A stretch of DNA of 64,000 nucleotides from Moorella glycerini. GTDB taxonomy: Bacteria > Bacillota > DSM-521 > Neomoorellales > Neomoorellaceae. Positions 3,107-23,943 of the stretch are shown here, in pieces. Each line of letters begins with the position of its first letter. Position 1 is the stretch's first letter. Below the pieces are notes generated by a model that saw nothing but the letters and a program-made list of their open reading frames with translations, searched no databases and was not told the DNA's origin. The stretch lies in contig NZ_CP046244.1 of assembly GCF_009735625.1 (NCBI RefSeq), positions 1,302,001 to 1,366,000 on the forward strand, written 5' to 3'. The translations under genes were made by a program, and so were the position numbers.

Positions 3107-3129
3107 GCAGGGAAAAGGAGGAAGTTAAT

Positions 3130-4179: not shown

Positions 4180-4282
4180 TAGTAATCGCCCGGATACAGG
4201 AGTAGAAGAACGGATTAATCAAGGAAGGTTATTTTGACTGGAAAGGTAACCACGTTAAAGCTTTCCCTGCATACCAATTTCA

Positions 4283-5478: not shown

Positions 5479-5494
5479 GCTAAATTAGCATCAA

Positions 5495-5507
5495 TTGACA
5501 ACGTTGT
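5495..5507 (+). promoter_or_regulatory. Second LacI operator candidate before kinase operon
   Basis: TTGACAACGTTGT contains the perfect ten-base palindrome ACAACGTTGT (5498-5507). It shares GACAACGTT with the site at 4382. It lies 17 bases after the LacI stop and about 80 bases before the next gene, as expected for an operator of the downstream operon. TTGACA at 5495-5500 could double as a -35 box, but I see no good -10 at normal distance. Confidence 0.5.
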
Positions 5508-5588
5508 TTTTTTGTCGAAGAAGCTGCCGCATTAATATTTCAAAATTAGCGCTTATGTAACCGGAGCCTTTTAGCGAGGTGGCTGTTG

Positions 5589-6533: not shown

Positions 6534-6551
6534 CAAAGGAGTCATAGTAGT

Positions 6552-7646: not shown

Positions 7647-7695
7647 GGCATCTGCGGCTTTAATACATCGAATTTTCTTGAGGAGGTCATTGAAA

Positions 7696-8751
7696 ATGGG
7701 AAAAATGACGAGCCGTGAGCGTTTCCTAAAAGCTGTTTGCGGCGAGCGACCTGATCGAGTGCCGATTTTTGACTTCCTTTTCCAGAAGGATATCTATGAA
7801 GCCACTATTGGACGTCGTCCCAAAAGTTATAATGCCCGGGATGCAGTAGAATGTACTTTGGCCTTAGATCTGGATGCCGTATGGGTGCCTTTTGGAGGTT
7901 TTCAGGGATGGGAACCCAAATACCTTTCTGAGAATATTTACCAAGATGAATGGGGCACCACTCTACAAGTAAGCGAATCTGCGTGGCCGATTGACGCTCC
8001 CATTGATTTCCCGATTAAAGATCGCAAAGACCTCCAGGCATATAAAGCACCCGATCCTCTGGCCCCGGGCCGCCTACAGGAAGTAAAGACTGCGTTAGAC
8101 ATGGTTGGGGGCAAGATAGCCGTATTGGGTGGAGTCCAGGGTCCCCTAACTACTGCATGGTTAATTATGGGGCCCACCAAAATCATGTATAGTTTTTATG
8201 ATGATCCCCAGTTATTACGCGATGTCTTCAAACTTTCTAATGACTTTTTCATCGAAGCAGCGAGGTTATTGGAAGAGGCAGGGATTGATGCCATCTTCGT
8301 CAGTGAAGATTTAGGCGCTAGTGCCGGTCCTCTATTTTCCCTGCAGATGTTCCGGGAATTTATCTTGCCCTACTTTGTCGAACTGGTGTCTTCCATCCAT
8401 GTTCCTGTTTTACTTCATAGCTGCGGTAACATAAATATTTTCCTTGATGACCTGGTAGCCACAGGTATTAAGGCCATCCATCCCCTGCAGCGCACAGCCG
8501 GCATGGATTTAAAGACCGTTAAAGAAAAGTACGGGAATAAAATAGCCATTATCGGTAACGTCGACTCTTCCCGCACCCTGCCGGAAGGGACGGAAGAAGA
8601 TGTGGAACGAGAAGTGCAAGAATGCATCGAAATTGCCGCTCCCGGCGGTGGCTATGTTTTAGCCTCCGATCACTCCCTCCATGATGGCATTCCGGTTAAA
8701 AACATCCTGAAAATGATCGAAGCGGGTAAGAAGTATGGTGTTTATGAATAA
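7696..8751 (+). CDS. UroD/MtaA-fold protein, paralogue 2
   Basis: A 351-residue member of the UroD superfamily. PDRVPIFDFLF near the N-terminus and HSCGNINIFLDDL around residue 241 match the methyltransferase branch. His241-x-Cys243 is kept. The distal zinc-Cys position reads LASDHSLHDGIPVKN, again without Cys, as in paralogue 1. ATG 7696 is chosen because AGGAGG (7681-7686) lies nine bases before it. Codon use is visibly more AT-rich than in neighbours, which may reflect separate acquisition. It stands just before the ABC importer genes. The substrate is unknown; a methyl transfer or a C-C/C-O cleavage on an imported methylated compound is only a guess. Confidence 0.75.
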   Translation: MGKMTSRERFLKAVCGERPDRVPIFDFLFQKDIYEATIGRRPKSYNARDAVECTLALDLDAVWVPFGGFQGWEPKYLSENIYQDEWGTTLQVSESAWPIDAPIDFPIKDRKDLQAYKAPDPLAPGRLQEVKTALDMVGGKIAVLGGVQGPLTTAWLIMGPTKIMYSFYDDPQLLRDVFKLSNDFFIEAARLLEEAGIDAIFVSEDLGASAGPLFSLQMFREFILPYFVELVSSIHVPVLLHSCGNINIFLDDLVATGIKAIHPLQRTAGMDLKTVKEKYGNKIAIIGNVDSSRTLPEGTEEDVEREVQECIEIAAPGGGYVLASDHSLHDGIPVKNILKMIEAGKKYGVYE

Positions 8752-8784
8752 AGCTCTTTAGGTTAAAGAAAGGAGGGGTAAAAT

Positions 8785-10293
8785 TTGCCTGATAGCCCCT
8801 ATATCCTGGAAATGCGATCCATTTGCAAAAGTTTTCCAGGTGTCCAGGCTTTAAAAAATGTCGACCTAAAAGTGAAACGGGGCGAAATTCACTGCCTTCT
8901 GGGGGAGAATGGTGCCGGGAAGTCGACCCTTATTAAGATTCTCGCCGGTGTCTATCCCATGGATGCCGGGCAAATAATCGTGAACGGCCATGAAGTTACT
9001 ATTAACAGCCGTCGTGACGCCCAGAATTTGGGTATCAGCTTTATCTTCCAGGAACTTAATGTCGTTAATCAGCTAACAGCCGCTCAGAACCTGACCTTGG
9101 GAGAAGAAAAACACCGTTGGGGCGTTATTAGCCGGCGGGAAGAAATAGCCATTGCCCGCAGCCATTTGCAGGAGCTAGGTATCGAACTTGACCTGCAGGC
9201 CAGGGTAGGTAACATGACTACCTCTCAGAAACAGATGCTCCTCATCGCCAAAGCGGTATCGACCCAGGCCAAGATAATTGTTATGGATGAGCCCACAGCA
9301 GCCCTGCCGGAAAAAGAAGTGGCCATCCTGTTTAATACCGTTAAAAGGTTGCAGCGTAAAGGAATTACTTTTATTTTCGTATCCCACCGCCTGCAGGACA
9401 TCTTCCAGATAGGGGAAAGCTTCACGGTATTGCGGGATGGGGAAAATGTAGGCACGGGTCGGATTGCCGAAATTACGGAAACGGAACTCATCAACCTGAT
9501 GGTCGGCCGTAAAATAGAAAGCCTCTATTATTGGGAACCCCGGCCAATAGGACGAGAGGTATTGCGATTGGAAAACCTCTCCGCCGTCAGCCTGTTGCAG
9601 GATATCAGCTTTAGCTTACACGCAGGTGAAATATTGGGGGTGGCCGGGTTGGCAGGCAGCGGTAAAAGCGAACTGGCCAAAGCCATTTTTGGCGTCAACA
9701 GGATAACCGGCGGCAGGATGTACTTGGACGGACAGCCCTTCCTTCCGGGAAGCCCGCGCGAGGCTATTGTTAGGGGCATCGCCCTGGTGCCCGAAGAAAG
9801 GCGTAGCGAAGGTATTGTCGGCGTTTTAAGCGTGCAGGACAACTTGTGCCTGGCCTGTCCGGGGCAAATCAGTTCTGTCGGCGTTTTAAAGAAAAAAGCC
9901 GAAAAAGCCCGTGCCCTCAACTTGATCAGGAAGCTGGATATCAAAACCCATAGCCCGCAGCAGCAGGTAGCCAACTTGAGCGGAGGTAACCAGCAGAAGG
10001 TGGTATTAGGTAAATGGCTGGAAAGCAGCACCCGTATCTACCTTATGGATGAACCTACAAGGGGGATAGACGTCGGCGCCAAGGGCGAGATCTACAAGCT
10101 AATCAATAATCTGGCGCGGGAGGGGGCGGCCGTTCTCATCTGTTCATCGGAGCTACCCGAACTCTTGGGCGTGTGCGACCGTATTTTGGTTATGCGTGAA
10201 GGCAGGTTGGCGGGCATCCTCTCCCGCGAAGAAGCAAACCAGGCCCGCATCTTGAGCCTGGCTATTGGAGGAGAACAAAAAAATGCGAGTTAA
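8785..10293 (+). CDS. Sugar ABC transporter ATP-binding protein (RbsA/MglA type)
   Basis: A 502-residue protein with two fused ABC domains, as in RbsA, XylG and MglA. The first has GENGAGKST (Walker A), a degenerate signature region and IVMDEPTAAL (Walker B). The second has GLAGSGKSE, the LSGGNQQKV signature and YLMDEPTRGID. In this family the second site is usually the degenerate one for hydrolysis. It drives import with the permease and binding protein that follow. TTG 8785 is preceded by AGGAGGGG. The next gene overlaps it by 11 bases, showing translational coupling. Confidence 0.93.
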   Translation: MPDSPYILEMRSICKSFPGVQALKNVDLKVKRGEIHCLLGENGAGKSTLIKILAGVYPMDAGQIIVNGHEVTINSRRDAQNLGISFIFQELNVVNQLTAAQNLTLGEEKHRWGVISRREEIAIARSHLQELGIELDLQARVGNMTTSQKQMLLIAKAVSTQAKIIVMDEPTAALPEKEVAILFNTVKRLQRKGITFIFVSHRLQDIFQIGESFTVLRDGENVGTGRIAEITETELINLMVGRKIESLYYWEPRPIGREVLRLENLSAVSLLQDISFSLHAGEILGVAGLAGSGKSELAKAIFGVNRITGGRMYLDGQPFLPGSPREAIVRGIALVPEERRSEGIVGVLSVQDNLCLACPGQISSVGVLKKKAEKARALNLIRKLDIKTHSPQQQVANLSGGNQQKVVLGKWLESSTRIYLMDEPTRGIDVGAKGEIYKLINNLAREGAAVLICSSELPELLGVCDRILVMREGRLAGILSREEANQARILSLAIGGEQKNAS

Positions 10294-11299
10294 AGGTAAA
10301 AACCTAAACCAATTAATGCTAGTGGCGATCCTCATCGGTATCTCTGCCATCTTCAGCGCTTTATCTCCGTCGTTTTTAACCACCGTCAATGTCATGAATA
10401 CCATCCGTCAGGTAGCAATGATTTCTATTGTCGCTTCGGCGGCCACTCTGGTCATGATTGCCCGCGGCCTGGATATTTCTGTGGGCGGTACCTTGGCCTT
10501 AACCGGCGTTATCTATGCCAGCCTGGCCACTAAAGGCGTCCCACTGAGTTTAGCCCTGTTAGTAGCCTGCTTGGCCGGCACGATGGTAGGAGTTATCAAC
10601 GGCGCACTGACAGTAGGTTTAAAGATTAATCCTGTCATCGCCACCTTGGGCACAATGTATGCCACCCGCGGCCTGGCTTTCCTGTATTCCGGGGGTGTGG
10701 CTGTGGTCAACGGCTTACCGGCCAACTTCAGCAACCTGGGCCGGGGTTATATAGGGCCATTTCCTACGCCTATCATTATTATGCTGATTGTTTTCCTTAT
10801 CTTCCACTTTCTCCTCAATAACACCCTGCTGGGCAAATATACCTATGCTGTCGGGGGCAACCCGGAAACAGCCATTCTTTCCGGCATCCCGGTAGCTATG
10901 GTAACCTTTATTCTCTACACCCTTGTTGGATTAATGACAGGTTTAAGTGGGGCGATAATGGCCTCTCGTTTGGGTTCCGGCCAGCCCAACATCGGTATGG
11001 GTTTTGAATTTGACATTATTCTGGCCGTTCTCCTGGGCGGTACCAGCCTTGCCGGCGGCGAAGGCACGGTGTTAGGTACCCTTATCGCCACGGTAATCGT
11101 CGGCGTCCTGGCCAATGGGCTCAATCTTCTGGGTGTGCATACCTTCTACCAATACATTATCAAAGGCGTGGTCCTAGTAGCGGCCGTGGTCATTGACATG
11201 CAGCTCAAGGGCCAGGGCGTCATTCGCGTGGGTAAAATGGTACCGGCAGGGAAGTTCAAACTTGAGGGGGGTGAGGCGCTGAAGGAAAAAAATAGGTAA
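10283..11299 (+). CDS. Sugar ABC transporter permease (RbsC type)
   Basis: A 338-residue integral membrane protein with eight or more hydrophobic segments from residue 9 on. It contains the family loop ARGLDISVGGTLALTG and the glycine-rich GGTSLAGGEGTVLG coupling region typical of BPD_transp_2 (RbsC/XylH/MglC) permeases. ATG 10283 is chosen because GGAGGAG lies within the end of the ATPase gene at normal spacing. It forms the membrane channel of the importer. A hydrophilic C-terminal tail of about 30 residues is unremarkable. Confidence 0.92.
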   Translation: MRVKGKNLNQLMLVAILIGISAIFSALSPSFLTTVNVMNTIRQVAMISIVASAATLVMIARGLDISVGGTLALTGVIYASLATKGVPLSLALLVACLAGTMVGVINGALTVGLKINPVIATLGTMYATRGLAFLYSGGVAVVNGLPANFSNLGRGYIGPFPTPIIIMLIVFLIFHFLLNNTLLGKYTYAVGGNPETAILSGIPVAMVTFILYTLVGLMTGLSGAIMASRLGSGQPNIGMGFEFDIILAVLLGGTSLAGGEGTVLGTLIATVIVGVLANGLNLLGVHTFYQYIIKGVVLVAAVVIDMQLKGQGVIRVGKMVPAGKFKLEGGEALKEKNR

Positions 11300-11397
11300 A
11301 TACGAGCAGGCAAGGTTGTAGAATGTAAAGGTTTATTCAGGAATGGTAGGAACAAGTACAGGACCCAATCCGAATATTGTTATGGGGAGGTTTCACT

Positions 11398-12468
11398 ATG
11401 AAAAATGCCAAATGGGTTTTATTGACCCTCGTAGTAGCTTTATTAGTAGCCTTGATAGTTGGATGCGGCCAGAAACAGGCTTCGAATTCCGGTACATCGG
11501 GGCCACAGCAAGCACAGCAAACGCAGAAAAAGCTCAAGATTGGCTATATTTATTTAACCCTGGAGCATCCGTATTACCAGGCTCATCAGAAATGGACGCA
11601 GAAATGGGCTAAAGATATGGGGATTGATCTAGTCGAACTCGACGGTAAAATGGATGCCGGTACAATGACCAACCAGATTGAAAACCTAGTGGCACAAAAA
11701 GTTGATGGGATTGTTTATTGTTTGGTCAATCCTGCCTCCGGCGCTTCTGATATTAATTATGCCCAACAAAACGGCATCCCCATAATTAGTTTCGCCATTA
11801 AGCACGGCAACGCGGCTAAAGCTCCTTTCGTTGGCATTGATGAATTAACGGCAGGGAAAATGGTTGGTAAAGCAGCAGCGGAAAAATTTAAACAGCTTTT
11901 CCCGAATAAAAAAGCTAAAATAGCTTTAATTAGAATGCCGGGTGTGGAGGCTACCGAGAACCGGGCCAACGGTTTCGTAGAAGGCTTTAAATCGGTTATT
12001 AGCGATGCTACTGTAGTTGCTGAAGTTGATGGTGGCGGTGTTCGTGATAAGTCTATGGCTGGTATGGAAGCTATTATCCAAGCGCATCCGGAGCTAAATG
12101 TGGTATATGGGATTAATGGTGATAGTGCGCTGGGCGCTCTGGCAGCATTGGAAGGAGCCGGTAGAGGAACTATAAAGACTGAATTGGTAGTTAGTCATGA
12201 TGGCTCCGAACCGGAAATATTGAAGTTAATCAACCCGGATAGTGCGCTGAAAGTATCTATTGCTAACCAACCCAAAGAATTATCTAAGGCCACATTGGAT
12301 ACTATCTTAGAAGTCATTAACAAAAAGCGGGATATGAAAAATACGGATAACATTTATGTTCCCGCCAAAGTACTGGAGCCTGATATTGATAAGTTACAGC
12401 AGTTTATTAAAGAAGAATACTGGTCGACTACCGACCTTAAAGCAGAAGCAGCGAAGTTCAAAAAATAG
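11398..12468 (+). CDS. Sugar ABC transporter substrate-binding lipoprotein (RbsB type)
   Basis: A 356-residue secreted lipoprotein. A positively charged start is followed by a hydrophobic stretch and the lipobox LIVGC at about residues 18-22, so the mature protein is anchored outside the cell membrane. The rest is a type 1 periplasmic binding fold (KIGYIYLTLEHPYYQAHQKW, VDGIVYCLVNPAS, ENRANGFVEGF), the sugar-binding cluster B class. ATG 11398 follows GGGGAGG. Codon use is AT-richer than in the permease gene. A strong stem-loop after the stop probably protects this part of the transcript. The ligand is not evident; ribose-type pentoses, galactose, inositol and autoinducer-2 are all bound by this family. 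Confidence 0.92.
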   Translation: MKNAKWVLLTLVVALLVALIVGCGQKQASNSGTSGPQQAQQTQKKLKIGYIYLTLEHPYYQAHQKWTQKWAKDMGIDLVELDGKMDAGTMTNQIENLVAQKVDGIVYCLVNPASGASDINYAQQNGIPIISFAIKHGNAAKAPFVGIDELTAGKMVGKAAAEKFKQLFPNKKAKIALIRMPGVEATENRANGFVEGFKSVISDATVVAEVDGGGVRDKSMAGMEAIIQAHPELNVVYGINGDSALGALAALEGAGRGTIKTELVVSHDGSEPEILKLINPDSALKVSIANQPKELSKATLDTILEVINKKRDMKNTDNIYVPAKVLEPDIDKLQQFIKEEYWSTTDLKAEAAKFKK

Positions 12469-12489
12469 TTTTTCGCGCGCCTAAAATGC

Positions 12490-12520
12490 AGCGGCCTATG
12501 TTATAAACATAGGCCGCTTT
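12490..12520 (+). terminator. Intra-operon stem-loop after the binding protein gene
   Basis: A perfect 13-pair stem (AGCGGCCTATGTT at 12490-12502, complement at 12506-12518) with a three-base loop and only a short T-run. Such elements after binding-protein genes usually give partial termination or shield the 3' end, raising the binding protein over downstream genes. Confidence 0.6.
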
Positions 12521-12539
12521 AAAACAAGGGGTGACGCAC

Positions 12540-13619
12540 ATGCAAACCCTGACTTCCCTTGAACGTTGTCTAGCCGCTCTCCGTTTTGAGGTCCCGGACC
12601 GGGTGCCGGTGGTGCCCCAGTCGTTTATGGTGGCCTGCGCTACGGCCGGGTACAAAATCGGCGCAATCAATAAAAGCGGCAGGCTCATGGCCGAAACACA
12701 TCTTGTCAGCCAGGCCAAATACGGCTACGACGGCGTCGTCATCGATATAGATGATGCCACCCTGGCGGAGGCCTGCGGCGCCAAAGTTATCTGGCGGGAA
12801 AATGATGTGGCTATAGTGGATGAGGAAGATGTGGTTTTAAAGGACCTGCGGCAGATTGACGACCTCCCTTTGCCTGATCCCTACAGTTCCGGGCGCCTGC
12901 CGGAATGGCTGGAGGCCACCCGGATTTTGCGGGAAAAGATCGGCGACCATGTTTTCATTATGGGACGGGCCGATCAGGGCCCTTTTGACCTGGCCTGCCT
13001 CCTCCGGGGGGCGCAGCAGTTTATGATTGACCTGGTAACCGAACCGCCGGAACTCATCTGGAAGGTCCTGGACTACTGCCGGCGGGCCGGGACGCTATTT
13101 GCCAAGGCCCAGAAGGATGCCGGGGCCCACGCCACTTCCATTGGCGATTCTTTTGCCGGCCCCAACCTCATTTCCCCGGCCATGTTCCGCCAGTTCGCCC
13201 TGGAGCATGAGATTACCATGACTAAAGAAGTCCAGGATTACGGCATTCCTTTCTCCATTCATATTTGCGGTGATACGACGGCCATCCTGGAAGATATGGC
13301 CTCTACCGGCGCCCGGATCCTGGAGCTTGACTGGCAGGTCGATATGGGCTATGCCAAACGAGTAGTTGGTAACCGGGCCGTTCTTATGGGCAATATCAAT
13401 CCCAGCGATCCCCTGGTCTGGGGCACACCGGAAGCTATTGAAGCCCAGGCAAAGAATATCATTGAGGCCACCGGGGGTATTGGTCTTTTCCTGAGTTCGG
13501 GCTGTGCCATGGGTTACAATACACCGGCGGCCAATATGCGGGCCTTGTGTGAGGCCGGTAAAAAGTATGGTAGCTATGAACGGTTAATGGAGTTGGAGGA
13601 GAAAAGGAGTAAGGCTTAA
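12540..13619 (+). CDS. UroD/MtaA-fold methyltransferase-like protein, paralogue 3
   Basis: A 359-residue member of the UroD superfamily. Unlike its two neighbours it keeps a full His-x-Cys-xn-Cys set: H241-I-C243 (HICGD) and C322 in LSSGCAMGYNTPAANM. These are the zinc ligands that activate a thiol in MtaA/MtbA-type corrinoid methyltransferases, so methyl-transfer chemistry is plausible here. PDRVPVVPQSF marks the N-terminus. ATG 12540 follows AAGGGGTGA; GTG 12531 overlaps that site and is less likely. Its stop overlaps the start of the DUF4432 gene (TAATG). No corrinoid protein or CoM pathway gene is adjacent, so the methyl donor and acceptor are unknown. Confidence 0.75.
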   Translation: MQTLTSLERCLAALRFEVPDRVPVVPQSFMVACATAGYKIGAINKSGRLMAETHLVSQAKYGYDGVVIDIDDATLAEACGAKVIWRENDVAIVDEEDVVLKDLRQIDDLPLPDPYSSGRLPEWLEATRILREKIGDHVFIMGRADQGPFDLACLLRGAQQFMIDLVTEPPELIWKVLDYCRRAGTLFAKAQKDAGAHATSIGDSFAGPNLISPAMFRQFALEHEITMTKEVQDYGIPFSIHICGDTTAILEDMASTGARILELDWQVDMGYAKRVVGNRAVLMGNINPSDPLVWGTPEAIEAQAKNIIEATGGIGLFLSSGCAMGYNTPAANMRALCEAGKKYGSYERLMELEEKRSKA

Positions 13620-14695
13620 TGGCGCACCTTTTTGACCGGGAATTTACCCGCCGGGATATCCGGCGCTACTTTGGCAGCCTGGAGCAGGTGGCCGGCCTCC
13701 GCCCCTTTACCTACGGCGAGGGAAGGGCTGAGGGCCTCAAGGCGGTTGAGGTCAGGACGGGGAGCGGTTTCCGGTTTGTCGTCCTGCCGGGGCGGGGCCT
13801 GGATATCGGCCTGGCCGAGTACCGGGGCCTGCCCCTGGCCTTTCGTTCGGCAGTGGGTGAGAGCGGCCCCCAGTATTTCGAACCGGCCGGCCTGGGATGG
13901 TTGAGGAACTTTGGCGGCGGCCTCCTGGTTACCTGCGGCCTGACCTACCTGGGCTCTCCCTGCCAGGATGCCGGGGAGGAACTGGGCCTTCACGGCCGCA
14001 TTAACAACGTTCCGGCCGAGGAGTTGGGTACGGCGACTGCCTGGGAGGGGGATGAGTGCATCTTTACCATTAAGGGCCGGGTACGGGAGGCTGTAGCCGT
14101 CTTTGGCCCCAACGTACTCCTGGAAAGGACCATCCGGGCGCGCCTGGGGGAGAACCGCCTGTTTATCCACGACGTGGTAACCAATGAGGGCTGGCAGCCG
14201 GCGCCCCATATGATCCTTTATCACATTAATCTGGGTTATCCCGTCCTGGATGCCGGTTCCGAACTGCTGGCTGCCAGCCGGGAGGTAAAACCCCGGGACG
14301 AAGTGGCTGCCCGGGGGTTAGCCTCTTACCGCATTTACGAGGGCCCGACGCCTGGTTTCCCCGATACTGTCTTTTATCACGACCTCCAGCCTGATGCCAA
14401 AGGATGGTGCCAGGCCGCCCTGGTCAACCGCCGGCTAAACCTGGGTGTATATGTCCGTTATGAACGCCAGAACCTGCCCAACTTTATCCAGTGGAAGTTT
14501 ACCGGCGAAGGCGACTATGTGGCCGGTCTGGAGCCGGCCAACTGCCTGGTGGAAGGGCGGGCTAGAGAGCGGCAACGCGGTACCCTGGTGTACCTGGCGC
14601 CAGGGGAGGTCCGGGAATACCGCCTGGAGATTGGTGTCCTGACCACGGCAGAGGAAATAGACGCCTTTGCCAGGGCCCTGCCGGCTATTTCATAA
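13619..14695 (+). CDS. DUF4432 aldose-1-epimerase-like protein
   Basis: A 358-residue protein matching the DUF4432 family of the galactose-mutarotase-like beta-sandwich fold. VLPGRGLDIGLAEYRG near residues 58-73 and GLTYLGSPCQDAGEELGLHGRI near 110-130 are recognisable, with the conserved His in LHGRI. Relatives occur in sugar and sugar-acid operons and are thought to epimerise or bind carbohydrates, but no reaction is settled. The start ATG shares its A with the preceding stop, so translation is coupled to UroD paralogue 3. The pairing suggests they act on the same substrate. Confidence 0.7.
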   Translation: MAHLFDREFTRRDIRRYFGSLEQVAGLRPFTYGEGRAEGLKAVEVRTGSGFRFVVLPGRGLDIGLAEYRGLPLAFRSAVGESGPQYFEPAGLGWLRNFGGGLLVTCGLTYLGSPCQDAGEELGLHGRINNVPAEELGTATAWEGDECIFTIKGRVREAVAVFGPNVLLERTIRARLGENRLFIHDVVTNEGWQPAPHMILYHINLGYPVLDAGSELLAASREVKPRDEVAARGLASYRIYEGPTPGFPDTVFYHDLQPDAKGWCQAALVNRRLNLGVYVRYERQNLPNFIQWKFTGEGDYVAGLEPANCLVEGRARERQRGTLVYLAPGEVREYRLEIGVLTTAEEIDAFARALPAIS

Positions 14696-14758: not shown

Positions 14759-15061
14759 GTGATTTTTTTGCGTCCAGCAGTAGGTATTATTGAAGCCATT
14801 GGTTTAACGGCAGCCATCCAGGCGGCCGATACGGCCGTCAAGGCGGCTGACGTTCAGCTCCTGGGTTATGAACTTTCCAAGGGCAAGGGTATGGTTACGG
14901 TACGCTTCAGCGGCGATGTCGGCGCCGTTACGGCGGCCCTGGAGGCCGCCGTGGCGGCAGCCAGGGAAGTAAGTGGCGTTTATGCCTCGCTAGTTCTCCC
15001 CAAACCCCATGAAGAACTGGACAAGCTATTGTACCGTCAGAAGAAGGATAATGTTGACTAG
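14759..15061 (+). CDS. Bacterial microcompartment shell protein, hexamer type (BMC-H 1)
   Basis: A 100-residue protein with a single BMC domain: AVGIIEAIGLTAAIQAADTAVKAA, then FSGDVGAVTAALEAA, then VLPKPHEELDKLL. Six copies form a flat hexamer that tiles shell facets. The start is either GTG 14759 (AGGAG just upstream) or TTG 14768, which gives an N-terminus closer to other BMC-H proteins. The C-terminus extends about ten residues past the fold. It is the first gene of the shell/enzyme operon and is followed by the aldolase after 18 bases. Confidence 0.93.
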   Translation: MIFLRPAVGIIEAIGLTAAIQAADTAVKAADVQLLGYELSKGKGMVTVRFSGDVGAVTAALEAAVAAAREVSGVYASLVLPKPHEELDKLLYRQKKDNVD

Positions 15062-15079: not shown

Positions 15080-16105
15080 ATGCCACTAATGACTCTAAAA
15101 GAAGTCCTGGCTGACGCCGACCGGCGCCATTACGGCGTGGGGGCCTTTAATGTCCTTAACGTCGAGATGCTGAATGCCATTGTAAGCGCGGCTGAGGAAG
15201 AGCAGGCGCCGGTGATCCTGGCTTTTGCCGAGGTGCACCAGAAGTATATCGCCATGGAAACCATTGCGCCGCTGATGCTTAAAGTCGCCCGGGAAGCCAC
15301 GGTGCCGGTGGTGGTTCATTACGACCACGGCCAGCAGTTTGAAAACATTATCAAGATCATGCATTACGGTTTTACCTCGGTAATGTTTGACGGCTCGACC
15401 CTGCCCTATGAAGAGAATGTCCGCCGCACCCAGGAAGTGGTGCGGATCGCCAGGATCCTGGGCGTTTCCGTGGAGGCCGAACTGGGGCATGTCGGCGGGG
15501 CGGAAGGGGGGCCGGGCGGGGAAGATGACCCGCAGGCCTGTTATACTGATGTCAACCAGGCGGCCGATTTCGTGGCCCGGACCGGTGTCGATGCCCTGGC
15601 GGTAGCCATCGGTACCGCCCACGGCGTTTACCGTACCCGCCCAAAGCTCGATTTGGAGCGCCTGGCGGCCATCAAAAAACGGGTGGGGATCCCCCTGGTC
15701 CTTCACGGCGGTTCGGGGTTGAGTGACGACGATTTTCGCCAGGCCATTGCCCGGGGGATAGCCAAGATCAATATCTTTACCGATATGTCCCTGGCAGCCG
15801 TCGATCAATTGAAAACGAAGTTGTGCACCTGTAGCCAGGGTAGCTGCGATGCGTCCTGTGCTGACAACTGCCTGCTCCAGCGTGATTACAGCGACGGTTT
15901 GCCCGGGGACAGCATGGAAGACCTGGTCCAGCGGGTAGTGGTCCGGGTATTGCGGGAGTTGGCGCAGAAAGAGAAAGCCCAGGCCCACCCGGTACAAAGT
16001 TACCCGGATTTGATTTTAGCGACCACGGCCGGGATTAAAGCCGAGGTTAAACGTAAGATGCGCCTTTTTGGCAGTAACGGCAAGGCCCTTGCCTTTGGCA
16101 AGTAG
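15080..16105 (+). CDS. Class II fructose/tagatose-bisphosphate-type aldolase with internal insert
   Basis: A 341-residue class II aldolase of the FbaA/GatY/IolJ superfamily, which cleaves a ketose phosphate to dihydroxyacetone phosphate and an aldehyde using zinc. VVVHYDHG (Asp82, zinc His83), VEAELGHVGG, GTAHGVY (zinc His181) and LVLHGGSG (zinc His209) are intact. The usual C-terminus IKAEVKRKMRLFGSNGKA is present. Between NIFTDMS and that end lies an insert of roughly 45 residues not seen in ordinary family members. It has five Cys (249, 251, 256, 260, 264) and then SMEDLVQRVVVRVLREL (279-295), an amphipathic helix resembling encapsulation peptides. It sits between two shell genes, so it is very likely BMC cargo. 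The aldehyde product is unknown; lactaldehyde, acetaldehyde, glycolaldehyde and malonate semialdehyde are options. Confidence 0.9.
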   Translation: MPLMTLKEVLADADRRHYGVGAFNVLNVEMLNAIVSAAEEEQAPVILAFAEVHQKYIAMETIAPLMLKVAREATVPVVVHYDHGQQFENIIKIMHYGFTSVMFDGSTLPYEENVRRTQEVVRIARILGVSVEAELGHVGGAEGGPGGEDDPQACYTDVNQAADFVARTGVDALAVAIGTAHGVYRTRPKLDLERLAAIKKRVGIPLVLHGGSGLSDDDFRQAIARGIAKINIFTDMSLAAVDQLKTKLCTCSQGSCDASCADNCLLQRDYSDGLPGDSMEDLVQRVVVRVLRELAQKEKAQAHPVQSYPDLILATTAGIKAEVKRKMRLFGSNGKALAFGK

Positions 16106-16168: not shown

Positions 16169-16447
16169 ATGATTAATGGTGCTCTGGGTATGGTGGAAAC
16201 CAAGGGTTTGACCGCGGCTATTGAGGCGGCCGATGCTATGGTGAAGGCAGCCAGCGTCAGCTTGCTGGGTATGGAGAAGATCGGCTCCGGGATGGTGACG
16301 GTTTTCGTGGCCGGCGATGTCGGTGCGGTCAAGGCAGCCACCGAAGTCGGCGCCCAGGCCGCCCAGAAGGTTGGCGAGCTGATAGCCGTCCATGTCATTC
16401 CCCGGCCCCATGCTGACCTGGAAAAAATCCTGCCGGCCATGGCATAG
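16169..16447 (+). CDS. Bacterial microcompartment shell protein, hexamer type (BMC-H 2)
   Basis: A 92-residue single BMC-domain protein very close to PduA/EutM/Ccm[41 protein letters not shown], and [14 protein letters not shown]. It is likely the main facet hexamer. ATG 16169 follows AAGGAGG. The segment after the KIGSG turn lines the central pore of such hexamers. It is followed by pduL after 31 bases. Confidence 0.95.
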
Positions 16448-16478: not shown

Positions 16479-17114
16479 GTGCTGCCACAGGAAGAATTAC
16501 TGGCCATCATCACCAGGGCGGTCCTGGCTGAACTAAAGGAGCAAAAGCGTTTCATCCCGGTAGGTGTTTCCGCCCGCCATCTCCACATCAGCCGCGCCGA
16601 CCTGGATGTCCTGTATGGCCCTGGTTATCAATTAAAAAAGTTAAGGCCCCTCATGGCCGGTGAGTTTGCTGCCGAGGAGACAGTGACCCTGGTGGGTCCT
16701 AATATGCGGGCCCTGGAGCACGTCCGTATCCTCGGGCCGGAGCGCCAACAGACCCAGGTCGAGCTGGCCCGGACGGATGCCGTCCGCTTAGGGCTCAATC
16801 CCCCGGTGCGCCAGTCGGGGGACCTGGCAGGTTCAGCGGGGTTAGTAATTGTAGGCCCTAAGGGAGCCGTGGTCCTGCGGGAAGGTTGCATTATTGCCAA
16901 CCGCCACATTCATATGACCCCGGCTGATGCCCGGGCCCTGGGCCTGAAAGATAATGTCTACGTTGATGTACGTGCCGTAGGGGAAAAGGGTGCCGTTTTA
17001 CACCAGGTACAGGTACGGGTTCATGAAAAGTTTCGTACCGAACTGCACATCGACACCGATGATGCCAACGCCCTGGGGTTACGCTGCGGCGACCGCGTCA
17101 TGGTGGTAGCGTGA
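16479..17114 (+). CDS. pduL: Phosphate acyltransferase PduL (phosphotransacylase)
   Basis: A 211-residue PduL-family phosphotransacylase, which turns acyl-CoA plus phosphate into acyl phosphate and frees CoA inside the compartment. The two beta-barrel domains each show a zinc His-x-His: SARHLHIS (H34, H36) and ANRHIHMTPADA (H143, H145). Residues 1-21 (QEELLAIITRAVLAELKEQK) form an amphipathic helix like an encapsulation peptide, as in BMC-associated PduL. GTG 16479 follows GAGGGAG. Its partners are the aldehyde dehydrogenase at 17431 and the acetate kinase at 20844. Confidence 0.94.
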   Translation: MLPQEELLAIITRAVLAELKEQKRFIPVGVSARHLHISRADLDVLYGPGYQLKKLRPLMAGEFAAEETVTLVGPNMRALEHVRILGPERQQTQVELARTDAVRLGLNPPVRQSGDLAGSAGLVIVGPKGAVVLREGCIIANRHIHMTPADARALGLKDNVYVDVRAVGEKGAVLHQVQVRVHEKFRTELHIDTDDANALGLRCGDRVMVVA

Positions 17115-17129
17115 AAGCTGGCGAGATAA

Positions 17130-17399
17130 ATGTTAATCGGTAAAGTTATCGGCTCAGTAGTATCCACCCGGAAACACGACGGCCTGGTAGGCTTGAAGCT
17201 CCTGATCATCAGGCCGTTAAACAGCCGCTCCCGGCACCAGGACCTGGTAGCTGTCGACAATATTGGCGCCGGCACAGGAGAAACCGTGCTGGTGACCACA
17301 GGCAGCAGCGCCCGCCTGGCGATCGATAACCCCCGGGCGCCGGTAGATGCCGCCGTGGTAGGCATTGTCGACAACCCGGCCGGGCTGTCGTCCGGGTAA
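17130..17399 (+). CDS. EutN/CcmL-type microcompartment vertex protein (BMC-P)
   Basis: An 89-residue protein of the EutN/CcmL/PduN family. MLIGKVIGSVVSTRKHDGLVG, KLLIIRP, LVAVDNIGAGTGETVLVTTGSSAR and DAAVVGIVD are all hallmarks. Pentamers cap the vertices of the shell. It starts 15 bases after pduL with only a weak ribosome-binding site and ends 31 bases before the aldehyde dehydrogenase start. It is the only vertex protein in the locus. Confidence 0.94.
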   Translation: MLIGKVIGSVVSTRKHDGLVGLKLLIIRPLNSRSRHQDLVAVDNIGAGTGETVLVTTGSSARLAIDNPRAPVDAAVVGIVDNPAGLSSG

Positions 17400-17430
17400 C
17401 TACTGCTGCCTTTTAAAAGGGGTAATAACT

Positions 17431-18867
17431 TTGCAGGCAGGAGAAGAACGGATTGCCCAGATTGTAGCGGAAGTGCTAAAAAAATTACAGCCCTATCTGC
17501 TTCCCGGCCAGCCGGTACCCGCACAGCCGGCGGCCGCAGCGGCGCCGGCTAATCTACCCGGTGAACAAGGCATCTTTAATGATCTGGAAGCGGCCCTGGC
17601 GGCAGCCAAAAAGGCCCAGGCCGAATTGATGGCCCTGGACAGGGAAACCAGGGAGAAGATTATCGCCGCCATCCGCCAGATCTTCCTGGAAAATGCCGAG
17701 AAGCTGGCCCGCCTGGCGGTGGAAGAAACCGCCATGGGACGTTATGAAGATAAGATCGTCAAGAATAAGAACGCGGCTTTGCTGACGCCGGGTATGGAGG
17801 ATTTGGAGCAAAGGGTCGACGCCGGTACGACGGGGATGATTTTTAGCGAGCGCGGTCCCTTTGGCTTGATAGTCTCTATTGAGCCGACCACCAACCCGGT
17901 GGCTTCGCCGGTCAATCATGGCCTGGCCATGATTGCCGCCGGCAACAGCGTTTGCTTTGCTCCCCATCCCCGGGCCGTCAAATGCTGCCACGAGGTGGTA
18001 CGCCTTTTTAACGAGGCGATCTATAAGGCCGGCGGTCCCGTTAATTTAGTTGTAACTACCCGTGATGTCAGCCTGGATAACGTCCACCGGGCCATGGCCT
18101 CACCCCTGGTAAACCTGATCGTAGCCACCGGCGGCCACGCCCTGGTGGAGGCTGCCTTGGCCAGCGGGAAGAAATGCATTGCCGGCGGTCCCGGCAACCC
18201 GCCGGTGGTGGTGGATGAAACGGCCGACATTGAGCTGGCGGCCCGGAATATCATTCTGGGGGCGGCCTTTGATAATAACCTCCTCTGTATCGCGGAGAAA
18301 GAGGTTTTTGTCGTGGACCAGGTGGCGGATGCCCTGCTGCTGGCCATGCAGCGCCAGGGCAATTATGTGGCCAACAACCTGGAAATCCAGCAACTGACCA
18401 AACTCCTGGTGGTGGACGGTAAGATTAACAGCCGCTTTATCGGCCAGAATCCATCCCGGATCTTAAAAGAGATCGGGGTCCGGGTTGGGGATGAGGTGCG
18501 GGCGGTAGTTATGGAAGTACCCCTGGATCACCCCCTCGTTACCCTGGAACAGCTGATGCCCGTTCTGCCGGTGGTCAGGGTCAAGGATTTTGCCACGGCA
18601 TTAAAAATTTCCCGGGAAGTGGAACACGGCTTCCGGCATACGGCCGCCATTTACACCCGCGATTATACCCGGGCGGCGGCCTTCGCCCGGGCCATGGAAG
18701 CCACCCTGACGGTGGTCAATGTGCCCACCTATGCCGGCCTGGGCGGCGAAGGCATCGGCAAGCCAACCATGACCGTGGCCGGCCCCACAGGGGAGGGTAT
18801 TACTTCACCCCGGACTTATACCCGCGAGCGTAACGTCGTCTTTGGTGGCCAGTTAACAATCGTTTAG
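17431..18867 (+). CDS. CoA-acylating aldehyde dehydrogenase (PduP/EutE type)
   Basis: A 478-residue aldehyde dehydrogenase that oxidises an aldehyde to acyl-CoA with NAD. Residues 1-20 (EERIAQIVAEVLKKLQPYL) form an amphipathic helix joined by an Ala/Pro linker (PVPAQPAAAAAP), the classic encapsulation peptide of BMC signature enzymes. The catalytic Cys is C286 in NNLLCIAEK, and PTTNPVASPVNHGL and GGPGNPPVVVDE are family motifs. TTG 17431 is chosen because it follows AAAGGGGT and gives the peptide at the very start. It would oxidise the aldehyde released by the aldolase. PduP versus EutE cannot be separated by eye. Confidence 0.93.
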   Translation: MQAGEERIAQIVAEVLKKLQPYLLPGQPVPAQPAAAAAPANLPGEQGIFNDLEAALAAAKKAQAELMALDRETREKIIAAIRQIFLENAEKLARLAVEETAMGRYEDKIVKNKNAALLTPGMEDLEQRVDAGTTGMIFSERGPFGLIVSIEPTTNPVASPVNHGLAMIAAGNSVCFAPHPRAVKCCHEVVRLFNEAIYKAGGPVNLVVTTRDVSLDNVHRAMASPLVNLIVATGGHALVEAALASGKKCIAGGPGNPPVVVDETADIELAARNIILGAAFDNNLLCIAEKEVFVVDQVADALLLAMQRQGNYVANNLEIQQLTKLLVVDGKINSRFIGQNPSRILKEIGVRVGDEVRAVVMEVPLDHPLVTLEQLMPVLPVVRVKDFATALKISREVEHGFRHTAAIYTRDYTRAAAFARAMEATLTVVNVPTYAGLGGEGIGKPTMTVAGPTGEGITSPRTYTRERNVVFGGQLTIV

Positions 18868-18882
18868 ACCGGAGTGAGCTTA

Positions 18883-20226
18883 ATGACCGGGCCGGAATTA
18901 GTAGCCAAAGTTTTTCAGGCGGGAGTGGTCGGGGCCGGCGGGGCCGGGTTTCCAACCCATTTTAAAATTAAAAACCGGGCGGAAATCGTCATTGCCAACG
19001 GGGCCGAGTGCGAGCCCCTCCTCCAGGTGGACCAGCAGCTCCTGGTCAGGGAGCGAAGGGCAGTTTTAAGGGCTCTGCAGGCAATAAAAGAGGCTGTAGG
19101 GGCCACGGAAGCTTACCTGGCCTTGAAACCCAAGTATAAAGAAGCAGTCAGTGCTTTAGAAGCAGTTTTGCCGGGGTATCCGGGCCTGACGATCAAGTTG
19201 CTGCCCGATGTTTACCCGGCCGGGGACGAGCAGGTGCTGGTGTACGAGGTCACCGGGCGGGTTGTCCCTCCGGGGGGAATTCCCCTCCAGGTAGGCGTGG
19301 TGGTTTTGAACATCGAAACCCTGGTTAATGTATATGCAGCCATGCATGACGAACCGGTAACAGCGAAGTATCTTACCGTTGCCGGCGCGGTGGCCCGCCC
19401 CGTGACCGTCCGGGTTCCGGTGGGAACACCGGTGAAGGAGGTCCTGGACCTGGCCGGCGGCCCGCAGGTAGAAGATTTTTTGGTCCTGGACGGCGGCCCC
19501 ATGATGGGTAAGCCAATCGCCCCTGAACACGATGTGGTGACCAAGACCACCAAGGGGCTACTGGTGCTTCCGGCCAGCCATCCCCTGGCGGCGAAAAAGC
19601 AATTGACCCTGGCCAGGGCCCTGGGGCGAACAATGGCGGCCTGTTGCCAGTGCCGGGAATGTACCGACCTTTGCCCCCGCTACCTGCTGGGTCACCCCCT
19701 GGAACCCCACCGGACCATGCGGGCGGTGGCTTATGGGATTACCAGTGATAGCCGGGGTATTACCGGGGCTATGTTGTGTTCCGAGTGCGGGTTGTGTGAA
19801 CTTTTCGCCTGCACCCTGGAACTCTCGCCCCGCCAGGTTAATGTCGCCATAAAAAAGGAACTGCGGCGCCAGGGCTACCGGCCGGGCCGGCCAGGGCAGC
19901 AACCCCTAGTTAACCCCTGGCGGGACGGGCGCCAGGTACCTACCGGCCGCCTGGTAGCCAGGCTGGGGCTGGGGGCTTATAACCGTAAAGCCCCCCTGAC
20001 CCTGGAATTGTACCGTCCCCGGCTGGTGAGGTTGCCTTTACAGCAAGGCTCTGGTGTGGCCGCCACTCCGCTGGTCAAGAGCGGTGACCGGGTGGCCAGG
20101 GGCCAGCTCATCGCTGCTGTTTCCGAAGAGCAAATCGGGGCCAACCTCCATGCCAGCATTGCCGGTACCGTCCAGGCGGTGGGCGAGGCCATCATAATCC
20201 GGGCCGGGGAGGTGGGTGAAGATTGA
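18883..20226 (+). CDS. PduS/RnfC-like Fe-S flavoprotein of the microcompartment
   Basis: A 447-residue protein with the RnfC/PduS layout. The N-terminal glycine-rich GVVGAGGAGFPTHFK and NGAECEPLLQVDQ bind flavin and NADH in RnfC and Nqo1-like proteins. An SLBB region follows, then two 4Fe-4S motifs: CCQCRECTDLCP near residues 252-263 and CSECGLCELFAC near 297-308. PduS is described as a cobalamin reductase that binds PduT. Here no B12-dependent diol dehydratase is encoded, so a role in passing electrons out of the lumen is at least as likely. ATG 18883 follows GGAG. Its stop overlaps the start of the PduT-like gene. Confidence 0.88.
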   Translation: MTGPELVAKVFQAGVVGAGGAGFPTHFKIKNRAEIVIANGAECEPLLQVDQQLLVRERRAVLRALQAIKEAVGATEAYLALKPKYKEAVSALEAVLPGYPGLTIKLLPDVYPAGDEQVLVYEVTGRVVPPGGIPLQVGVVVLNIETLVNVYAAMHDEPVTAKYLTVAGAVARPVTVRVPVGTPVKEVLDLAGGPQVEDFLVLDGGPMMGKPIAPEHDVVTKTTKGLLVLPASHPLAAKKQLTLARALGRTMAACCQCRECTDLCPRYLLGHPLEPHRTMRAVAYGITSDSRGITGAMLCSECGLCELFACTLELSPRQVNVAIKKELRRQGYRPGRPGQQPLVNPWRDGRQVPTGRLVARLGLGAYNRKAPLTLELYRPRLVRLPLQQGSGVAATPLVKSGDRVARGQLIAAVSEEQIGANLHASIAGTVQAVGEAIIIRAGEVGED

Positions 20227-20771
20227 AACACGCCATCGGTTTATTGGAATTGAACAGCCTGGCCGCGGGGGTCATGGCAGCCGACACCATGGTCAAAACG
20301 GCGGCGGTGGATCTCCTCCAGGCCACCATCATGTGCCCGGGGAAATATATCATCTTAGTTGCCGGGGATGTCAGCGCGGTCCAGAGCGCCGTCGCAGCAG
20401 GTAAAGCAGGGTTCGCGGCGAACATCATCAGCAGCCTGATCCTGGCCAACGTGCACCCGGATGTCTTCCCGGCCCTCAGGGGGGCGGTAGCAGCGACGGC
20501 AATGGGTGCCCTGGGTTTGATCGAATCCTTTTCGGTGGCGGCGGCCATCCAGGCCGCCGATGCCGCGGCCAAAGCGGCCGTAGTGCAACTCCTGGAGATT
20601 CGCCTGGCCCGGGGTATGGGCGGCAAAGCCTTTGTTCTTTTTACGGGGGATGTAGGTGCGGTCACAGTGGCGGTGGCCGCCGGCGCCCGCCAGGCGGAGG
20701 CCGAGGGTATGCTGGCCGGCACGGCGGTAATTGCCAATCCCGACGCCCGGGTCTGGGAGCAGGTGCTGTAG
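20223..20771 (+). CDS. Tandem-domain shell protein of PduT type (BMC-T)
   Basis: A 182-residue protein with two BMC domains: residues about 1-90 (AIGLLELNSLAAGVMAADTM) and 93-182 (ALGLIESFSVAAAIQAADAA). Trimers of such proteins are pseudo-hexamers. Cys38 lies in QATIMCPGKYI, the position at which PduT trimers hold a 4Fe-4S cluster in the pore. With the PduS-like gene just upstream and overlapping (the TTG start at 20223 lies over the TGA stop), this pair probably forms an electron conduit through the shell. GGGGAGGTGG is its ribosome-binding site. Confidence 0.92.
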   Translation: MKHAIGLLELNSLAAGVMAADTMVKTAAVDLLQATIMCPGKYIILVAGDVSAVQSAVAAGKAGFAANIISSLILANVHPDVFPALRGAVAATAMGALGLIESFSVAAAIQAADAAAKAAVVQLLEIRLARGMGGKAFVLFTGDVGAVTVAVAAGARQAEAEGMLAGTAVIANPDARVWEQVL

Positions 20772-20843
20772 AAGGTTAAACTGGCGGGCGGGTAGGGAAA
20801 GTATAAGTAAGTGCTGCTAGCTACCAGTGAAAGAGGGTTTTGG

Positions 20844-22052
20844 ATGCAGATTTTAGTTCTCAATTGCGGCGGTTCATCCATGAAGTACCAGCTTCTGGCC
20901 ATGCCGGCAGAAAGGGTACTGGCCAAAGGGAGCATTGACCGGCTGTTTAGCCCCCGGGCAGAGATCAGCCACCAGGTGGCGGGCCGGGAAGCAGCCCGGG
21001 AGCCCTTGCCCGGCGCGACTTTTGCCGACGGCATCCGCTGGCTGGTTACCGCATTGCGGGAGGAGGGTATCATTGCCGGGGTCACGGATATTGAAGCCAT
21101 TGCCCATAAACTGGCCCACGGCGGGGAGAAATTCCAGCAGCCGGTGTTGATTGACGACGAAGTCCTGGCTACCCTTACCAGCCTCTCCAGCCTGGCGCCG
21201 GTTCACCTACCCCCGGCGGTGGCAGGCATCAGGGTGTGCCAGGAATTGTTGCCGGGGGTACCCCAGTATGCTGTCTTTGAAACCAACTTCCACCAGACTG
21301 TACCGCCTTACGCCTATATCTACGGCCTGCCCTACGAGTGGTACGAACAGTACGGCATTCGCAAGTATGGCTTCCACGGTACCTCCCACCGCTATGTAGC
21401 AGAGACGGCAGCTGGAATCCTGGGACGGGAACTCCGGGAATTAAAGCTTATCTCCTGCCACCTGGGCAGCGGCACCTCCGTGGCGGCCATCAAATACGGC
21501 CGGTCGGTAGACATCAGTAGCGGACTGACACCCCAGTCGGGGACCATTATGTCCACGCGGCCGGGGGATTTTGACCCCTGGGTCTTTCCCTTGATCATGG
21601 AACTGACCGGCATGACGCCCGCCGCAGTTAATGAAGTCATGGTTAAAAAGGGCGGCCTGCTGGGTATTTCCGGCTTGAGCGGCGATATGCGCGACCTGGA
21701 GGCCGCGGCCAGAGAAGGCCACCAGCGGGCCCAACTGGCTATCGATGTCTTTTGCTACCAGGTAAAGAAGTATATCGGTGCCTTTGCCGCCGCCATGAAC
21801 GGGCTGGACGCCTTAATATTTACCGGCGGCATCGGCGAACGGTCCCCTGCCATCCGCGCCGGGATCTGCCGGGATCTTGATTTTTTGGGGATTGAGTTAG
21901 ACGAAGAGAAAAACAAACACCGGCCCCGGCTGGATATCCTCTCCAGGGACAGTGCCCCGGTGGCCATCCTGGCCATTGACAGCAACGAAGAATTGATGGT
22001 GGCCCGGCAGGTAATTGATTTTAGGCATACTTTATGCTCCATATGTCCATAA
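20844..22052 (+). CDS. ackA: Acetate kinase
   Basis: A 402-residue acetate/propionate kinase of usual length. LVLNCGGSSMKYQLL at the N-terminus, YGIRKYGFHGTSHRYV, CHLGSGTSVAAIKYGRSVDIS and TGGIGERSP are the family signatures. It converts acyl phosphate from PduL to the acid and ATP. ATG 20844 follows AGAGGG. As the last gene of the BMC run it gives the energy yield of the pathway, probably in the cytosol, since I see no N-terminal targeting helix. It could also serve the general acetyl-phosphate pool. Confidence 0.95.
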   Translation: MQILVLNCGGSSMKYQLLAMPAERVLAKGSIDRLFSPRAEISHQVAGREAAREPLPGATFADGIRWLVTALREEGIIAGVTDIEAIAHKLAHGGEKFQQPVLIDDEVLATLTSLSSLAPVHLPPAVAGIRVCQELLPGVPQYAVFETNFHQTVPPYAYIYGLPYEWYEQYGIRKYGFHGTSHRYVAETAAGILGRELRELKLISCHLGSGTSVAAIKYGRSVDISSGLTPQSGTIMSTRPGDFDPWVFPLIMELTGMTPAAVNEVMVKKGGLLGISGLSGDMRDLEAAAREGHQRAQLAIDVFCYQVKKYIGAFAAAMNGLDALIFTGGIGERSPAIRAGICRDLDFLGIELDEEKNKHRPRLDILSRDSAPVAILAIDSNEELMVARQVIDFRHTLCSICP

Positions 22053-22217
22053 AGCGGAGAGGGTCCGGAATAAGGCGTTAAGTATAGTTTAATTTATAGT
22101 AGCTTTGCAAGGGCAGCCCAACTTTAAACTGCTTATGGTAGTCCTGCGATAAACAAGTTATGGGATAGGAAGGACTTGTTTCGCCAGCAAAATTCTATCA
22201 CCTTGGAGGAAGGTTTC

Positions 22218-23228
22218 ATGCCGGCAAAAACCCTCGATGTCGTCTCCGTAGGCGAGATTTTAATTGATTTCGTGGGCAGCCCCAAAGGGTGTCCGCTGGC
22301 GGAAGTGACCGATTTTCGCCGCGCTGCCGGCGGCGGGCCGGCCAACGTTGCCGTGGGGGTGGCGCGCCTGGGCGGCCGCGCCGGTTTCATCGGTAAGGTG
22401 GGCCGGGACGCCTTCGGGGACCATTTACAGAAGGTCCTGGAGGAAAACAATGTGGATACGCGGGGCCTCCTGCGGGACAGGGAGGCCAACACCACCCTGG
22501 TTTTTGTTGCCCTGAATGAAAAGGCGGTGCCGGAGTTCGTCTTCTTCCGTCACGGGACAGCCGACACCAGGCTGGACCCGGCCGAACTGCCGCGGGAGGT
22601 CCTGGCGGCGACCCAGATCCTGCACTTCAGCTCCGTTTCCCTGACGGTGGAACCGGCTAGGAGCGCCACCCTGGAGGCCGTCCGCCTGGCCAGGGCGGCC
22701 GGGGCAGTTATATCCTTTGACCCCAACCTGCGCCTGTCCCTCTGGCCGGACCGGGAGACGGCCAGAAGAAACATCCTGCAGGCCGCCGCTAGAGCGGACA
22801 TCATCAAGCTCAACGCAGAAGAGCTGGTATTTTTAACCGGTTGTCCGGAGATGGCCGCTGGAATAGCAGCGCTGTTGTCCGGGATAGCGCCGGGGCCGCG
22901 GCTAATCGCTGTTACCCGGGGCGCGGCCGGGGCCGTCCTGGCCCGACAGGGGTTGCAGGTAGAGATACCGGCCCTACCGGTAACCGCTGTGGATACCACC
23001 GGTGCCGGGGATGCCTTCATGGCCGGAATGCTAACCGCCCTGGCCGGGATTTCAGGGGAGGGCCGGGATTTAACGGATCTGGAAGAAAGGGAACTGCACC
23101 ATGCCGGTCGCCTGGCAGCCACTGCCGCGGCCCTTGCCTGCACCCGCCCGGGCGCCATCCCGGCGTTGCCGACGCAAGCGGAAGTGGAAGAAGAGATACA
23201 GCGTAACTTAAGAAGAGTAGGGTTTTAA
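22218..23228 (+). CDS. PfkB-family carbohydrate kinase (fructokinase-like)
   Basis: A 336-residue ribokinase-fold kinase. SVGEILIDFVG, GGGPANVAVGVARLGG, GKVGRDAFGDH and DTTGAGDAFMAGML place it with fructokinases and 2-keto-3-deoxygluconate kinases. ATG 22218 is preceded by TTGGAGGAAGG at good spacing. It lies 165 bases beyond acetate kinase and may be transcribed separately, though I see no clear promoter. Its 3' end overlaps the convergent vapC gene by 21 bases. Substrate unknown. Confidence 0.87.
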   Translation: MPAKTLDVVSVGEILIDFVGSPKGCPLAEVTDFRRAAGGGPANVAVGVARLGGRAGFIGKVGRDAFGDHLQKVLEENNVDTRGLLRDREANTTLVFVALNEKAVPEFVFFRHGTADTRLDPAELPREVLAATQILHFSSVSLTVEPARSATLEAVRLARAAGAVISFDPNLRLSLWPDRETARRNILQAAARADIIKLNAEELVFLTGCPEMAAGIAALLSGIAPGPRLIAVTRGAAGAVLARQGLQVEIPALPVTAVDTTGAGDAFMAGMLTALAGISGEGRDLTDLEERELHHAGRLAATAAALACTRPGAIPALPTQAEVEEEIQRNLRRVGF

Positions 23229-23880: not shown

Positions 23881-23943
23881 AAACAATCTGCCTCCTTGCC
23901 AACTCCTTACTCTCCATAGTTTATCATACCTGGTAAAGCAACG

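Follow-up and report, generated by a model that had tools for sequence, protein, structure and literature searches.

The 341-residue class II aldolase described here, encoded in a 64,000-nucleotide stretch of the Moorella glycerini genome (hereafter the window), is probably the signature enzyme of a bacterial microcompartment (BMC), a protein-walled organelle, for sugar phosphates, acting in the cleavage of a ketose 1-phosphate and carrying inside its chain both an encapsulation peptide (EP) and a cysteine-based metal knot. In the mechanism that we propose, the aldolase would split a ketose 1-phosphate to yield DHAP plus an aldehyde, and encapsulated AldDH, PduL, and AckA would convert the aldehyde to an acid and ATP. 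An amphipathic helix at residues 278-294 would be presented on a flexible loop between the post-TDMS helix and the last barrel helix, where it would bind shell proteins or other EPs in the manner of terminal EPs. A cysteine cluster in the same loop would bind a metal, as Fe-S or Zn, and so fix or oligomerise the tag.

A class II aldolase encoded in a BMC operon

The aldolase ORF (15080-16105) matches the PF01116 profile with an E-value of 4e-97 and a score of 325 bits against a cut-off of 25.5. Its catalytic (beta/alpha)8 core, residues 1-245 (15080..15814, + strand), retains all of the Zn-site and catalytic residues (D82, H83, H181, H209, G211/S212, and N231), and the ordinary C-terminal helix of the fold, placed by alignment, the AF2 model, and structure comparison, spans residues 308-336 (16001..16087, +). 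VIA-align aligns the enzyme to SqiA, Taq FBA, and YdjI with Z-scores of about 40; the solved YdjI and SqiA chains (6ofu, 8q57-8q5a) share its fold and active site but, unlike it, are without the insert described below and are not known to be linked to BMCs.

Family assignment bears upon the substrate. The aldolase passes the general subfamily model TIGR00167 (276.7 against a cut-off of 215.6) and passes none of the NCBIfam equivalogs for fructose/tagatose 1,6-bisphosphate aldolases, the best score being 336.7 against a cut-off of 406, a figure lowered somewhat by the insert itself. In the TDxR/K motif this aldolase has a serine (TDMS) where those paralogs of the genome that read TDIR or TELK retain a basic residue. 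Our reading of the substrate is based on the role of the TDxR arginine in class II aldolases; a literature search found no source for that role, sought in the Giardia aldolase. The TDMS serine and the failed bisphosphate equivalogs are in line with a ketose 1-phosphate and a neutral, non-phosphorylated aldehyde product, the chemistry that a metabolosome requires. Judged from sequence, the enzyme probably takes a ketose 1-phosphate as its substrate and releases DHAP and an aldehyde.

Moorella is an anaerobic acetogen genus; the present bacterium is heat-loving, and the closest relative of its genome is M. stamsii (97%). The aldolase sits in a complete BMC operon, read on the + strand throughout. 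Two BMC-H shell proteins (PF00936) lie to either side of it at 14759..15061 and 16169..16447, the latter starting at the ATG at 16169 behind an AAGGAGG site. Downstream are encoded the phosphotransacylase PduL (16479..17114, PF06130), a BMC-P (EutN/CcmL) shell protein (17130..17399, PF03319, E 4e-31), a CoA-acylating aldehyde dehydrogenase (AldDH; 17365..18867, NF011927, 544 bits against a cut-off of 403) whose true start probably lies inside this ORF, a PduS/RnfC-like flavin and Fe-S protein found by profile search (18874..20226), a PduT-like BMC-T shell protein with two PF00936 stretches and a CPGK pore motif (C-P-G-K-Y; 20223..20771), an acetate/propionate kinase (20811..22052, PF00871), and a PfkB-family sugar kinase (22176..23228, PF00294). 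The CPGK pore motif of PduT is described in PMC6325248. BMC-H, BMC-P, AldDH, and PTAC thus occur together, the combination that marks a BMC metabolosome locus. Both PduL and AldDH bear at their N termini the same kind of EP that we propose for the aldolase, namely QEELLAIITRAVLAEL (16488-16535, +, EP score 18.5) and GEERIAQIVAEVLKKL (17440-17487, +, EP score 26.9), respectively.

Upstream of the operon and on the same strand, profile searches reveal a series of sugar genes (4417..14695, +) encoding a LacI regulator, a PfkB kinase (5586-6533), a phosphomannose-isomerase-like protein, URO-D-family proteins, a ribose-type ABC importer, and a DUF4432 protein. This gene order is mostly retained in L062, the locus of a 70% identical aldolase. 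Two published BMC types were considered and rejected for the locus. The SPU type is defined by a pfam01791 DeoC-type aldolase and a pfam02502 RpiB (PMC8217296), neither of which is among the operon genes scanned; the PVM/GRM5 type calls for a pfam00596 aldolase, and that of the operon belongs to PF01116. The Moorella genome contains two further BMC loci, each with a pfam00596-like aldolase.

Several minor features of these regions deserve mention. Three URO-D/MtaA-family proteins are encoded in the sugar-BMC region of the window (3073-4179, 7678-8751, and 12531-13619). Adjoining the BMC operon on the minus strand (23208-23886) is encoded a PIN-domain protein (PF01850), with a small protein, AbrB-like by eye, upstream of it; the two could be a toxin-antitoxin pair. 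In the genome's third BMC locus (L065), PduS is divided between two overlapping ORFs (10485-11093 and 11057-11830), perhaps through a frameshift or an assembly error.

An internal helix resembling an encapsulation peptide

The insert consists of ~60 residues that lie after the TDMS strand and before the final helix of the aldolase and comprises, in order, the Cys cluster, a linker, the amphipathic helix, and a second linker; window positions 15824-15970 correspond to codons 249-297 of the ORF. An earlier, sequence-only reading of this DNA had placed the cysteines and the helix between the TDMS strand and the C-terminal helix, at a point where ordinary family members have a short loop. Alignments agree, as no insert was found in the genome's three aldolase paralogs (L002-L004) or in most sampled relatives, which possess a short loop instead. 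The first linker, residues 265-277 (15872..15910, +), is variable in sequence and has pLDDT values under 50 across residues 262-273, and the second, residues 295-307 (15962..16000, +), is likewise variable. In the AF2 model, a monomer built with 30 sequences, the mean pLDDT is 85 and the core lies mostly above 90; confidence is low for residues 249-273 of the insert (close to or below 50 in the Cys stretch and linker) and about 70 for the helix, predicted at 279-300. As modelled, this unplaced, floppy insert fits a tag and may be exposed, as the low model confidence would allow, although a monomer model is no proof of this.

The helix itself, SMEDLVQRVVVRVLREL, covers residues 278-294 (15911..15961, +). 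Its likeness to an EP, proposed in the sequence-only reading, is borne out by an EP motif model, although the residue numbers then given, 279-295, required correction. The hydrophobic moment of 0.61 falls in the top 0.5% of 18-mers. Briefly, the EP model is a 16-column motif derived from 39 AldDH N-termini, nearly all from other genomes and excluding sequences from the window, L062, and G049; AldDH-only N-termini were used because an initial motif run had settled on the core of PduL. The helix scores 14.5, which corresponds to about 1e-4 per 16-mer and a P of about 0.03 per protein, a modest value for a single sequence, and in some EP-less aldolases (L009) the ordinary C-terminal helix also scores near 10. 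The aligned helix stretch is the top EP-model match in all seven internal-EP aldolases. More telling than the single-sequence score, we suggest, is the conservation of the helix relative to its linkers. Identity to L062 is 12/17 in the helix versus 2/11 (residues 267-277) and 2/13 in the flanking linkers, and identity to L063 is 11/17 versus 1/11 and 1/13. The modest score of the single 16-mer might favor dismissing the insert as a product of chance or an assembly artefact, a reading to which we assign a negligible probability; it is already refuted by the relatives: in five genomes, at 67-97% identity, the frame stays open and both the Cys and the helix are conserved.

Published accounts (PMC8217296, PMC12339742) present EPs as helices at the N or C terminus. 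The aldolase helix agrees with this description in being short and amphipathic and in adjoining a flexible, poorly conserved linker, but departs from it in position, lying at residues 278-294 of 341. Terminal position is nonetheless a usual rather than a strictly defining property of EPs, because intramolecular exceptions have been published: PMC5311937 and PMC6325248 report one for the GRM3 glycyl radical enzyme (GRE) and predict others for GRM4/5. As portrayed there, the GRM3, GRM4, and GRM5 GREs resemble the aldolase in having an EP-like amphipathic helix surrounded by poorly conserved linkers inside a BMC signature enzyme and in the absence of the insert from a non-BMC relative; they differ in being an unrelated enzyme whose ~60-aa insert contains two helices and for which the relevant passages describe no Cys cluster. 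An internal EP is therefore not a new cargo design in principle, having been anticipated by the GRE; the aldolase extends the internal position to another enzyme family, as its second instance. A literature search, mostly of open-access main texts, found no internal EP in an aldolase, the EPs encountered being N- or C-terminal or GRE-intramolecular.

From its sequence features, the aldolase helix is very likely an internal EP, that is, a tag for packing into the BMC. If confirmed, this assignment would mean that EPs placed inside a compact single-domain enzyme are still usable, which would help in engineering cargo with buried ends.

Distribution of PF01116 aldolases with EP-like helices

Relatives with the internal EP are found in shell operons at L005 (97% identity), L062 of genome G016 (70%), L063 of genome G423 (68%), and L006 (67%). 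The internal-EP aldolase of L058 has shell genes on another contig, and a search for BMC genes in the 1.5 Mb, fragmentary, and incomplete genome of L007 detected none. A C-terminal EP-like helix occurs in four rumen clostridial relatives (L013 and L016-L018), and the aldolases of L060 and L061 possess a C-terminal Cys cluster plus an EP. These C-terminally tagged PF01116 enzymes share with the Moorella aldolase its fold, an EP in BMC-linked members, and, in two cases, a Cys cluster; unlike the Moorella aldolase, they carry the tag at the chain end.

Among 13 EP-bearing aldolases, 12 belong to genomes that have BMC shell genes and eight are encoded within a shell operon, whereas 5/14 of the EP-less aldolases tested come from BMC genomes and 0/14 stand beside shell genes. 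The genome-level linkage of EP and BMC has a p value of about 0.003, from hand counts that ignore kinship; class searches around G049 and G068 yielded one or two genomes only. The sequence-only reading had taken the insert to be EP-like, internal, and tied to BMCs, and had held that finding the same insert commonly outside BMC loci would speak against this. The match to the EP model and the counts above uphold it, and the reading is not refuted, because EP-bearing aldolases are mostly from BMC genomes and none of the EP-less ones stands beside shell genes.

In an aldolase tree built without the insert columns, the seven internal-EP aldolases form one group (support 88/88), as do its five Cys-bearing members (100/99), and the rumen clostridial C-terminal-EP group and L060/L061 lie apart from them. 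Because C-terminal-EP groups occur elsewhere in the tree, the EP was probably attached to the PF01116 fold more than once; these relationships point to repeated gain, probably once inside the chain. L014, which falls within the C-terminal-EP group, is without an EP, and no BMC genes were found in its genome when looked for.

The insert could instead be an oligomerisation or regulatory element rather than a packaging signal, its link to BMCs stemming from the shared ancestry of one clade. Because the internal-EP aldolases are one clade, their BMC linkages do not count as independent cases; neither L058 nor L007 is part of a shell operon, and PMC5311937 places the intramolecular EP of a GRM5 GRE in an oligomer interface. 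We consider this explanation unlikely: the aldolase helix matches an EP model derived from a different enzyme, and in other PF01116 clades the EP of BMC aldolases is C-terminal, which would not be expected of an interface element. The packaging tag remains the favored reading.

The aldolases of L058 and L061 lie outside shell operons in genomes with a BMC elsewhere. At L058 (G823:C3), the internal-EP aldolase is accompanied by PfkB and DUF4432 genes, away from the BMC locus L066 (G823:C13), in which no aldolase was found; this arrangement suggests that L058 is a satellite cargo locus. The L006 aldolase (3157-4209) lacks GTA before the Zn-ligand histidine and has HVGSG in place of HGGSG, differing in these respects from its near twin L063; either the MAG is in error or the enzyme is damaged.

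A cysteine cluster beside the probable tag

The cluster follows the pattern C-x-C-x4-C-x3-C-x3-C at residues 249-264 (15824..15871, +), exactly as first read from the sequence, and consists of C249, C251, C256, C260, and C264; C154 is the sole other cysteine of the aldolase. At the local Cys frequency, five cysteines within 16 residues are expected about 0.0004 times per protein of this length, and among 104 gene-like ORFs examined, the same density recurs only in PduS/RnfC-like ORFs of BMC loci. All five cysteines are kept in L062, and four of the five in L063 and L006, which have lost C260; C249, C251, C256, and C264 are conserved in 5/5 members of the Cys-bearing group. Across the Cys segment, 7/21 residues are identical to L063, and four of these seven identities are cysteines. 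The L006 and L063 aldolases also possess a second Cys-rich tail (CTHSGGCSCGC) after the last helix. The aldolases of L007 and L058 contain the internal helix without the cluster, which is dispensable for the helix because these two internal-EP enzymes lack the cysteines.

Most likely, the cluster binds a metal, as Fe-S or Zn, in a knot that would fix or oligomerise the tag. It is possible, if clearly less so, that the cysteines bind no metal and act as a redox switch or form disulfides that trap the cargo in the lumen, as happens in carboxysome scaffolds. Their spacing varies by lineage (C-x-C-x4-C-x3-C-x3-C, C-x6-C-x2-C-x2-C, and C-x2-C-x2-C), a range that is wide for a single, defined metal site, and some linkers have two or three cysteines only. 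However, spacings such as C-x2-C-x2-C and tetra-Cys commonly mark Fe-S and Zn sites, two products of the operon (PduS and the PduT-like BMC-T) belong to Fe-S protein families, and disulfides are unlikely in a cytosolic compartment of an anaerobic acetogen genus. A role as a [4Fe-4S] electron relay from the lumen to PduS/PduT, in place of a structural knot, seems to us somewhat improbable. PduS and PduT are encoded in the same operon, and PMC6325248 proposes lumen-to-cytosol electron transfer for PduS/PduT pairs; aldol cleavage, in contrast, is not a redox reaction, and the EP linkers of the operon's AldDH and PduL, as well as two internal-EP aldolases, contain no Cys cluster. The preferred reading, a structural metal knot, has a partial parallel in the tetracysteine C-terminal extension of PduK, where a BMC protein likewise bears a Cys cluster outside its main fold, proposed as an Fe-S ligand, although PduK (PMC6325248) is a shell protein rather than tagged cargo.

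The cluster is not unique to the Moorella aldolase, as it recurs beside the C-terminal EPs of other PF01116 aldolases and of pfam00596 aldolases. That it appears again in a second aldolase fold is the more interesting of these results. The pfam00596 aldolases of PVM, PVM-like, GRM5, and ACI BMCs resemble the Moorella enzyme as signature aldolases with DHAP chemistry and an EP (PMC8217296, PMC4207490); unlike it, they have an unrelated fold and a C-terminal EP. A further likeness emerges from the present analysis, namely a C-x2-C-x2-C triad between the catalytic domain and the C-terminal EP in 12/15 of the BMC-locus pfam00596 aldolases sampled (L064, L065, L069, L130-L134, and L137-L140); the triad was looked for and not found in L135, L163, and L165. 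HPGCxxCGAC-like triads are present in the aldolases of L064 (15427-16224, -), L065 (6969-7814, +), and L069 (5389-6156, -), two of which belong to the same Moorella genome as the window. PDB relatives of the pfam00596-like aldolase align to the catalytic part only, leaving the tail unmatched.

Similar Cys motifs follow the EP in the AldDH of L060 and in the PduL of L069 and L138, but are absent from most AldDHs. Cys-rich linkers as a general property of BMC cargo were rejected, the first 70 residues of AldDHs not being Cys-enriched (0.0100 vs 0.0134), and the strict motif occurs in 3/36 AldDH/PduL linkers in aldolase-type loci versus 0/38 elsewhere, a difference that is not significant (p 0.11). 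Since cysteines are found beside the EPs of several aldolases, the pairing recurs, within this sample, among BMC cargo of the aldolase type, and a literature search found no description of it.

We tentatively raise the idea, about which we are more doubtful than convinced, that a movable cassette of cysteine knot plus EP marks BMC signature aldolases, placing a metal (Fe-S or Zn) beside the EP in two unrelated aldolase folds and in some AldDH/PduL linkers, internally in one clade, where the metal would staple or cross-link tags at core assembly or sense redox state. If true, this reading would add an inorganic element to BMC assembly. A conserved Cys site beside the EPs of two unrelated aldolases would, if confirmed, render a metal role in BMC core assembly directly testable. 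Cys-rich linkers directly after N-terminal EPs of AldDH or PduL were also observed at L060 (6530-7954), L064 (12792-14261), L069 (3788-4480), and L138.
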